NCBI RefSeq assembly: GCF_032854445.1 | Contig: NC_088296.1 | Location: forward strand, 8,654,706-8,718,705 | Origin: Liolophura sinensis | Lineage: Eukaryota > Mollusca > Polyplacophora > Chitonida > Chitonidae | Length of the DNA stretch: 64,000 nt | Direction: 5' to 3' | Part shown: positions 32,165 to 62,388 of the stretch, one piece after another | How positions within the stretch are numbered: the stretch's first letter is position 1 | How the letters are laid out: the number at the start of each line of letters is the position of its first letter | Made by a program: the position numbers and the translations under genes | Notes under the pieces: generated by a model | Databases searched by the model: none | Told to the model about the DNA's origin: nothing | Seen by the model: the letters and a program-made list of their open reading frames with translations, nothing else

Positions 32165-35100
32165 CTAGGATTGACATAACATCTCAGGATAGCTGGCGTA
32201 ATTTGAAATCCCACAACGGTTGCCATGGTCACGCGCGATGAGAATGTAGCCTCGTTCTCCCCATGATTCGCCATAACTGAAACAAAATAAAAATATGAAA
32301 ATCATATCTATGACCGTTTCACAGTAGTTAAGTTATTTTTTAATTTTTCTTCATTTTAAAATTCACTTACTTGACAGACTCTGAACCACCGTCGTATAAG
32401 TAAAATATTCTTGACTTGAGCGTAAACCATCAACCAAATAAATAAATCTACATATCGATCGACCTTTCTTCAGGAACTTGACAGATTCCCTTATTGAATG
32501 CAGCAGCCAGATCAACTAAAGTCGCCATGTTGTTTGATATAAAACAAATTATGTGTGTATTTAGCAGTTTTGCGCTTAAAAAAAGCAATTGTCTGTAATT
32601 GTTTTTAAACTGATCGATATAGTTCACAATTATTTAGAGACTGTGGTGGATCTTAACGCTGTCATAACACCAAAACCACATTTATGGGGGGGGGGGGAGA
32701 GAAAGCGATAATCCATCTCTGTTCTTACTGCTTACTCGCCGCTACACATTTTTGCAATCAAGAAAGTGTAGTCATATCAAAAACTCACAGTTCCATTAAT
32801 TAGTAAGCAATTATTGAGCACGAATATGTGCAAATAACATAGATGACCCCCTCAATACCAAGATCAAAAACTATGTTCTGAAGTAATAAGCAGTCAATAG
32901 TAACCTGTTTTTAACGATCCAGTATTTCTTTCCGTCTATCATACCATATCCAACAACTAGGGCAGCGTGATCCAGTTCGTCTGGGGTACACAATGGATCG
33001 TCGTACACACCTGGAATTTATTTATTTATTGATGACGTCACGAAAATATCTATGACGACGAAAATGAACATTACGACGGGAAAATTGACACTTGCTTCGA
33101 CAGACGACGTGCTCATATTCTGCCAACCAAATATATAACTGTAAATCCCGTGAGACAAATAAGAAAAATTCTTGGGATCATAGTGGAGCGACTGATACCT
33201 GAAAGAGAATGTGGAACGATCTGGAAAATATTTCGCTAAATTAGAATTGGTAGCAAGGCTACCAAACAGCTCGCCTGTATGAGACACATGAATGCAAAAC
33301 TTCGTGCAAAAAGCCCCATGCACAAAGAACTAAAATCGTAAATTGGGTTATTTACGGTAATTGATACGCTCACAGACCATCAGGGATGGAACACCCATCT
33401 TGCGGCATGGCGGTGTATATGCATGTAAAACTTCACGTCAATACATACAATACTTTATAAGATACCAAGTCTAATATTTTGTTTAACAGTGATTCTAATA
33501 CACAATACACTAATTCAGGAATTCAGTAATTTATGTTACTGAATATGTGCACACCAAATCAGCGAGGGAATATTCCCCTCGTGCTATTCTGTCCTACGAG
33601 TGTGTAAACCAAGTCAATACACTAAGTCAGGTATTCGGCATATTTACGGCACTTAATGTGCACACATCCAATCCACGATGGAATATACCATTCGTAAAAT
33701 TTTGTTTAACAATGTTTTCTCTGATATTGGAAGGGGTGTAATGACCCAGAAGCCTCTCACCAATGCAGTCGCTGTGAGTTCAAGTCCAGCTCATGCTGGC
33801 TTGCTCTCCGGTTGTACAGGGGAAGGTCTAGCCGCAGCCTGCGGATGGTCGTGGGTTTCTCCCGGGCTCTGCCCGGTTTCCGCCCACCACAATGCTGGCT
33901 GCCGTCGTATAAGTGAAATATTCTTGAGTACTGCGTAAAACACCAATCAAATAAATAAATAAAACACCAATGAACTAAGTTTATTATTGGACGCCGACGC
34001 CAAGGCTCAAGGTACGACATAAGCTACGCCTGTACTTTACAGAGGTGAGCAAATAAGTGTCAAGGACGAATTAAAGGAGGTCAGTTATCTACTGCATCTA
34101 CGATTTGTCAAACAGTTCTGGAAATACTGATGTATTAATGCTTCCTTATAAATATGCATTGCTCATAAATTTGAAATTAATAACTGTAGGGAAGAAAAAT
34201 AACATAAAAACCTTGTCTTAAACACTGGGCAGCAACCTGTGGATGGTCGTGGATTCCCCCCCCCCCCCCCCCGGCTTCGCCCGCTTTCCTCCCATGCTGA
34301 CCGCCGTCATATAAGTGAAATATTCCGGCGTAAAACACTAATCAAATAAATAAATAAGTAACTCTTACACAATGCCATGGTTGATATCATAGCAATAAAC
34401 CAATGAAATAGATTGCTCTAATCCGACCGTTAAGGATGTTAGCCAGATAATGGTGAATTTTCTGACGTGTTTCGTACATTTGTACATGTCATAACGGTGG
34501 AAGAAAAGTGTTCTTCAGGGAACGTTAAGCTGGAAATGTATATAAACGGTTGCACAAGTGTTATAGTCATCAATTTGAACCTATACCATCGATGAACCTA
34601 CACTGAATCTGAATCTCGTGCTTACCAATCGTCAATAAACGAGGTTTGGTACGCATGCCCTTTTATGAAACTATACTAACTTTGATAGAGAGGTAACGGG
34701 GATCATTTGACGGCGTAACGAAGCCTTCAGCAGTTACGATTACATGCTTTTAGTAACAGGTTACATACAACAGATAAAGATTACATAGCCCACAATTACC
34801 CGATTTGTAGAATGTGAAAGAGTTCAGATCAGCATGAAGTCCCACCGCCACTGGGCCGTTCGTGAAGACAACAATCTGCATGGCAGTCTCATTGCCTTTT
34901 GGCAAATCCACACAGCCACGGATATCTGCACCAACTGTGCCAGGGTTAAAGCGACATTTGTCATTCTGTAATGATGGAAAACAATTTTATATATTTTCTC
35001 GTGGCGCATCCGAGCCTAGCGTAGATTACTGTCTCACGGGCCCTTCCCTGTGAGACCAAGAATCAGGTGTGGTGGTAACCTGCGAATGGCAGTGGGTTTC

Positions 35101-62388: not shown

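Follow-up and report, generated by a model that had tools for sequence, protein, structure and literature searches.

In C1A (papain-family) peptidases Cys25 is the nucleophile, and the oxyanion hole is built from the main-chain NH of Cys25 together with the side chain of Gln19. Dead cathepsins are scattered through animals, and the jobs assigned to them are mostly guesses. In the accessible text on Trichobilharzia regenti, TrCB1.6, an inactive cathepsin B1 paralogue with Gly in place of Cys, is described as highly transcribed and as binding chicken cystatin after removal of its propeptide, whereas the unprocessed form did not bind; the complex was weak, a small part being bound upon overnight incubation (PMC7054455). 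For cathepsin L homologues of Tenebrio and Tribolium, the accessible part of the report gives Ser or Ala at the active site (QAHN, ESHN) and Pro in none (PMC4336737). In a homologue from Sycanus bifidus, Ser reportedly replaces Cys and Arg replaces His (PMC12653315); TINAL-like proteins are reported to have Ser at the catalytic position (PMC8956072, PMC5792627), and testin and silicatein to combine Ser25 with non-proteolytic roles (PMC3265493). C1A pseudoproteases with Ser, Ala or Gly have thus been published, and no C1A protein with Pro25 was found in our searches of the open full-text literature, in line with a previous sequence-only reading of the locus studied here, which knew of no described Pro25 family.

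Here, we analyzed a 64,000-nucleotide stretch of the Liolophura sinensis genome (hereafter the window; C2 8,654,706-8,718,705 of 609 Mb). Together with its flanks, the window holds eight cathepsin L genes in a row of about 98 kb, arranged as three plus-strand genes upstream of the window, g1 over its left edge, and then g2, g3, g4 and g5, so that g3, g4 and g5 stand at the end of the row. The first five genes read CGSCW and thus have Cys25. The first three exons of g1 lie at 483..2029 on the minus strand and the gene continues upstream of the window (locus L012), while g2 (8513..17921, minus strand; seven coding exons, 332 aa) has all catalytic residues and served as a Cys25 comparator. In the 38.6 kb of fetched flank past the first exon of g5, no further exon was found.

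The three remaining genes, g3 (39472..32165, 338 aa), g4 (52443..43420, 337 aa) and g5 (337 aa), are all on the minus strand, complete and procathepsin L-like, with eight coding exons each. Their active-site exons (exon 4) lie exactly where they had been placed before, at 36513..36384 (CASPW, codon CCA at position 25), 48944..48815 (CGSPW, CCT) and 60955..60826 (CGSPW, CCT), respectively; in g4 the proline is residue 139 and the exon also carries a gained cysteine, Cys156. Exon 1 contains the start codon and a signal-peptide-like region in g3 (39327..39472, where the I29 propeptide also starts) and g4 (52301..52443), both called from gene model and hydropathy. Exons 2 to 8 of g5 lie at 62388..56683, and its signal-peptide-like first exon, called from flank sequence and hydropathy, lies about 1.3 kb past the window edge (window-equivalent 65397..65255, locus L013); it joins in frame to give an open reading frame of 337 aa with one terminal stop. 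The I29 propeptide occupies exon 2 in g3 (38151..38256, with ERWNIN and GVNAFAD) and g4 (51599..51704), and exon 2 of g5 is at 62283..62388. Exon 3 of g3 (36751..36900), g4 (50840..50989) and g5 (61872..62021) holds the propeptide end, a gained cysteine (in the context VYCKGK in g3, Cys104 in g4), the start of the mature body and Gln19. Exon 5 (35506..35606, 47871..47971 and 60214..60314) is followed by exon 6 (34800..34965, 46482..46647 and 58185..58350), which has another gained cysteine (RGCVDL in g3, Cys228 in g4) and the N-glycosylation sequon NET, and by exon 7 (32905..33010, 45091..45196 and 57219..57324), with the His and Asn of the former triad. Exon 8 of g4 (43420..43531) and g5 (56683..56794) includes SWG, a gained cysteine (Cys335 in g4) and the stop codon TAA; that of g3 (32165..32276) has KNSYG, a gained C-terminal cysteine and the stop codon TAG.

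All 21 introns of the three genes are GT-AG, the spliced frames are open, and there is neither a frameshift nor a premature stop in the 24 coding exons. The correct splice sites of the sequence-only reading were thus confirmed, and its count of 7-8 exons becomes eight in each gene once the exon of g5 outside the window is added. The signal peptides it had proposed for g3 and g4 agree with hydrophobic N-termini there and extend to g5 through the exon in the flank; the best 11-residue mean hydropathy is 2.05 in g3, 2.92 in g4, 3.05 in g5 and 2.84 in g2, and the signal-peptide-like call for g3-g5 is one of hydropathy.

Several repeats were noticed around these genes. Two large minisatellites lie between g2 and g3; at 22246-24095 a 50-base unit is repeated 37 times (94% matches), at 25084-26497 a 57-base unit about 25 times (91% matches), and a further tandem repeat at 29702-30233 has about 10 copies of a 52-base unit (94% matches). 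Between g4 and g5, an interrupted inverted repeat at window positions 52815-54149, with arms of 343, 66 and 78 nt that are 96-97% complementary and an unpaired core, is reminiscent of a foldback mobile element. The introns of g3, g4 and g5 also carry several copies, in both orientations, of a dispersed repeat about 200 bases long, among them one at 33735-33961; by its spread this repeat is SINE-like.

Papain position 25 is Pro in all three proteins, as had been read earlier; the eight cathepsin L paralogues with Cys25 used for comparison have TGC or TGT at this codon. A sequencing error is a very unlikely cause, since two bases must change in every gene to turn Cys into Pro, and the genes do not all use the same Pro codon (CCA, CCT, CCT). 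Among the genes compared, no Ser or Arg intermediate was seen at this position. The earlier statement that everything else is kept proved to be partly right: Gln19, His159 and Asn175 are present in the alignments of g3, g4 and g5, as are the I29 domain and the six cysteines of the three predicted canonical disulfides. On the other hand, 12 columns of one alignment, including Cys25 and one gained cysteine, are fixed differently in the clade and in the eight Cys25 paralogues, four cysteines have been gained, and in g3 Tyr has replaced the conserved Trp that follows Asn175 (KNSYG for KNSWG). Moreover, g3 and g4 have Met for Gln before Cys22 (QGMC vs QGQC), in a column at least 90% conserved in an alignment of 56 rows (g3, g4, g5, g2 and 52 prokaryotic relatives). 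In this alignment, 11 columns are invariant in all rows, the Pro25 clade included, and the Cys25 column, of the class conserved in at least 90%, is broken by the clade.

To our pattern search of the 609 Mb genome for C-[GA]-S-P-W-A-F there were nine exact matches, three of which have S-P-W and correspond to g3, g4 and g5; the other six read C-[GA]-[WC]-P-W-A-F and none coincides with a PF00112 match; no other match to C-[GA]-S-P-W-A-F was found in this genome. The reversed control pattern gave one match in the same genome. By our grouping the 64 PF00112 matches represent 21 genes, in 19 of which the active-site exon was located, with Pro in three and Cys in 16 (one of the latter, L043, being a weak match); it was not located in L036/L041 and L038. 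When the g4 protein was compared with the genome, 65 matches were obtained, and none outside g3-g5 exceeded 61% identity over a single exon. Among prokaryotic relatives, CGSCW was present in all 80 retained of 115 found, a set chosen by patterns that themselves select QG[MQ]C[GA]S[PC]W or LSEQNL[VM]D, so that the lack of Pro among them carries little weight; 52 of the 80 loci were aligned, one being dropped for a stop codon and 27 for size. Viral contigs gave 48 pattern matches and no confirmed relative.

Some other loci met in this census deserve mention. The cathepsin O-like L029 (SARAF) was rejected as a second pseudoprotease: at 3004-3310 an intron lies inside the Trp codon of CGACW, and an exon-wise reading falsely suggests a dead enzyme. 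One cathepsin L-like gene on C6 (L036 2182-6070 and L041 895-963), in which no active-site exon was located, has transposon-like open frames between its exons, encoding DDE_1 and HTH_psq domains; the element may break up the gene or may simply sit in an intron. A haemocyanin array of eight consecutive PF14830 domains was noticed at C8:37880506-37891931, and PF14830, a molluscan haemocyanin domain, was unmatched in 14 control genomes, as a mollusc origin of the DNA would lead one to expect; an array of eight such units would fit gastropods.

Both PF00112 and PF08246 were detected in all four proteins scanned (g3, g4, g5 and g2), which gives g3-g5 the papain-family domain and I29 propeptide of cathepsin L-type C1A proteins. 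In g4, PF00112 covers 1-219 of 220 positions, and I29 and C1 are the only Pfam domains. ERWNIN was found by regular expression in g3 and g4 and read from joined exons 1 and 2 in g5, and a GNFD-like propeptide motif (GVNAFAD or GVNTYAD) is present in all three. The best matches in a sequence search were procathepsin L chains (E about 1e-92). An AlphaFold run with the four window proteins alone reached a pLDDT of 30, and the addition of the 52 prokaryotic relatives, giving 56 sequences, led to success for full-length g4 (pLDDT 91.3, pTM 0.88). The Foldseek best match of this model was procathepsin L 1cs8 (E 4.4e-37, TM 0.85/0.90, 45% identity). The central helix of the model begins at residue 139, the proline itself, and the block 131-140 has a mean pLDDT of 86. 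Helices readily accommodate Pro in their first turn, so Pro25 is compatible with the fold.

Pairwise dN/dS values (Nei-Gojobori, intron-split codons excluded) were 0.142 for g3-g4, 0.136 for g3-g5 and 0.108 for g4-g5, which are rough because dS is 1.38-1.62; they are close to those of a trio of Cys25 neighbours, A, B and C (0.091-0.118). Bootstrap intervals of pN/pS for the clade pairs spanned 0.17-0.35, with 97.5% bounds of at most 0.35, and 48-53% of codons differ at the third position vs 11-17% at the second. The genomic stretches of g3, g4 and g5 align to one another only in exons and recurring repeats, which indicates old, separate loci. Thus, g3, g4 and g5 are old and constrained and are not pseudogenes, and the dN/dS across the three genes supports the sequence-only reading.

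In the phylogenetic tree, g3, g4 and g5 formed one clade (support 100/100) with a stem of 1.14 changes per column and end branches of 0.12-0.33; a long stem with short tips is the pattern expected if rapid change gave way to constraint once more. The clade was kept (100/97) when human cathepsin L and four bacterial outgroups were added, in a tree where most cathepsin L forks were unsupported and branches long, and a tree joining all eleven mollusc genes was not rejected (AU p 0.18). An intron of g3-g5, located by eye, lies within the Gly codon before VYDD/IYDD. L032, on another chromosome, has an intron at the same place and in the same phase; that of L027 lies upstream of this place by about five codons, and no intron is present there in A, B, C, g1, g2 or L017. 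This one character suggests that the Pro25 clade may have split off before its neighbours lost the intron. A single loss of Cys25 preceding the duplications would be the simplest history.

Four cysteines outside the signal-peptide region are common to g3-g5 and absent from all eight Cys25 paralogues compared; in g4 these are Cys104 in the propeptide, Cys156 just past the central helix, Cys228, and Cys335 in the C-terminal tail, which ends LCDF or LCQS in the clade. That their number is even suggests, for a secreted protein, two additional disulfides, possibly Cys104-Cys156 and Cys228-Cys335. The NET sequon is likewise common to g3-g5, and g2 has no sequon there. In the propeptide, MNG of most Cys25 paralogues is replaced by RNG, QRG and RYG, and the gained cysteine lies nine residues after the glycine of the cleft-contacting segment. 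At the C-terminal junction of the clade's propeptide, 4 of 19 columns are variable vs 32 of 76 elsewhere in the propeptide (Fisher p 0.12), compared with 7/16 vs 19/70 in the Cys25 trio (p 0.23); unusual conservation of the junction did not reach significance. The S2-pocket residue differs among the three proteins, being Leu, Leu and Tyr at what we take to be the human Ala214 position.

It is very probable that g3, g4 and g5 are catalytically dead and maintained. Where an active C1A peptidase has Cys25 all three have Pro, which offers neither a thiol nor a main-chain NH, while Ser, Ala and Gly keep the NH; catalysis would therefore be lost on two counts. The dead, secreted-type C1A clade beside intact-site paralogues that the sequence-only reading proposed agrees well with a single clade under constraint, a procathepsin L fold and five Cys25 genes in the same row; the decoy, scaffold, inhibitor and matrix roles that it listed are candidate functions. 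Our preferred explanation is that g3, g4 and g5 form one old clade of secreted-type pseudoproteases of cathepsin L descent, kept by selection, and, more tentatively, that these proteins act by binding. With catalysis lost, self-activation should be impossible, and the propeptide would be retained if no other protease cleaved it off. The cleft could be freed through cleavage by a neighbour whose active site is intact, and it might then sequester cystatin-type inhibitors or compete for substrates; in either way it could shield or modulate the enzymes encoded by the row's five Cys25 genes. That sequestration or competition is the main job is a slightly less secure proposal than binding itself. 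Against binding we count the differing S2-pocket residues, the Met of g3 and g4 in QGMC, and the cystatin target, for which a Pfam search of the genome gave no match; the control also matched nowhere, and cystatin genes commonly have their coding sequence divided among several exons, so absence does not follow.

A propeptide that always stays in place would keep the cleft occupied, which argues against sequestration, and this propeptide has gained a cysteine and its junction is, if anything, more conserved. An alternative that we regard as doubtful, although it ranks next to binding, is that the proteins are molluscan 'frozen zymogens', full-length zymogen-like modules in which Pro25 takes away nucleophile and oxyanion-hole NH at once and two gained disulfides would staple propeptide and C-terminus to the body, giving a permanently closed secreted scaffold or decoy, with a structural, matrix or ligand-presenting role like that of silicatein and TINAG. 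The four shared cysteines missing from eight Cys25 paralogues, the confidence of the model around them (block pLDDT 91, 97, 97 and 93) and the loss of self-processing that follows from Pro25 all fit such a role, as do the non-proteolytic roles reported for the Ser25 proteins testin and silicatein (PMC3265493). However, the cysteine pairing is a proposal of ours, and no extra domain typical of matrix proteins accompanies I29 and C1. If true, this would be a route to pseudoprotease function other than the described Ser, Ala and Gly replacements. Any retained function would probably be one of binding, and the present evidence is compatible with both a binding cleft and a closed scaffold.

A distinctly less likely possibility is that active cathepsin L paralogues are inhibited in trans by the I29 domain of these dead zymogens, in the manner of CTLA-2alpha, crammer and BCPI. 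The domain is intact and retains both ERWNIN and the glycine of its cleft-contacting segment, and the gained propeptide cysteine recalls CTLA-2alpha, a cysteine of which is reported to make a disulfide-bonded complex with cathepsin L (PMC4089206). But C75 of CTLA-2alpha is described as adjoining the cleft-contacting region, a likeness judged from description, whereas the clade's cysteine lies past the cleft glycine by the distance given above; furthermore, MNG is not kept, and in cis one would expect the I29 domain to occupy the dead catalytic body of its own chain. An assembly artefact or the decay of duplicates could account for the fact that the three genes lack the catalytic Cys and that g3 also lacks the Trp; both are very improbable in view of 24 intact coding exons, 21 GT-AG introns, dN/dS of 0.11-0.14 at dS >1 and copies that match as old separate loci do. 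We give as little credit to residual or altered catalysis through another cleft nucleophile: His, Asn and Gln19 are kept, but the Ser at position 24 is present in Cys25 paralogues too, and from general enzymology the oxyanion-hole NH should be gone.

This locus offers a natural test of what the papain fold is kept for once catalysis is impossible. The three-gene clade stands beside Cys25 relatives and is constrained about as strongly as they are, and Pro25 knocks out the enzyme more cleanly than Ser, Ala or Gly do, the oxyanion-hole donor being removed as well, so that any retained function must be non-catalytic.

Among known systems, g3-g5 are closest in build to cathepsin L (human procathepsin L, PDB 1cs8, 7w33), with which they share the fold, I29 with ERWNIN, Gln19, His, Asn and the disulfide cysteines, and from which they differ by Pro for the catalytic Cys, four extra cysteines and the tail LCDF or LCQS. 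TINAG and TINAGL carry extra domains on a cathepsin B-like body with Ser25, whereas the clade has Pro and g4 has I29 and C1 only. Silicatein, testin, TINAG/TINAGL and SERA5 are likewise C1A proteins without the catalytic Cys, several of them described as non-proteolytic; Ser stands at the position in the accounts available, and silicatein with its Ser25 is therefore not matched by g3-g5. The TINAL-like proteins are described with a cathepsin B-like domain, unlike the cathepsin L-type clade. Stand-alone I29 inhibitors (CTLA-2alpha, crammer, BCPI) share the I29 domain, and CTLA-2alpha and crammer are reported to carry Cys as well (PMC4089206), but they lack the catalytic domain that is complete in the clade, as the PF00112 match of g4 indicates. 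The Tenebrio and Tribolium proteins are, by the accessible part of that report, cathepsin L-type non-peptidase homologues in expanded gene families, as are g3-g5 (PMC4336737). As far as the available text of its description goes, the nearest tested precedent we found is TrCB1.6, which is also a dead paralogue of active cathepsins; it belongs to the cathepsin B subfamily and has Gly, whereas g3-g5 belong to the cathepsin L subfamily, have Pro and are known from genes alone. Thus, inactive C1A homologues with Ser, Ala or Gly were known before, and within the open literature covered here the Pro25 clade appears to be new.
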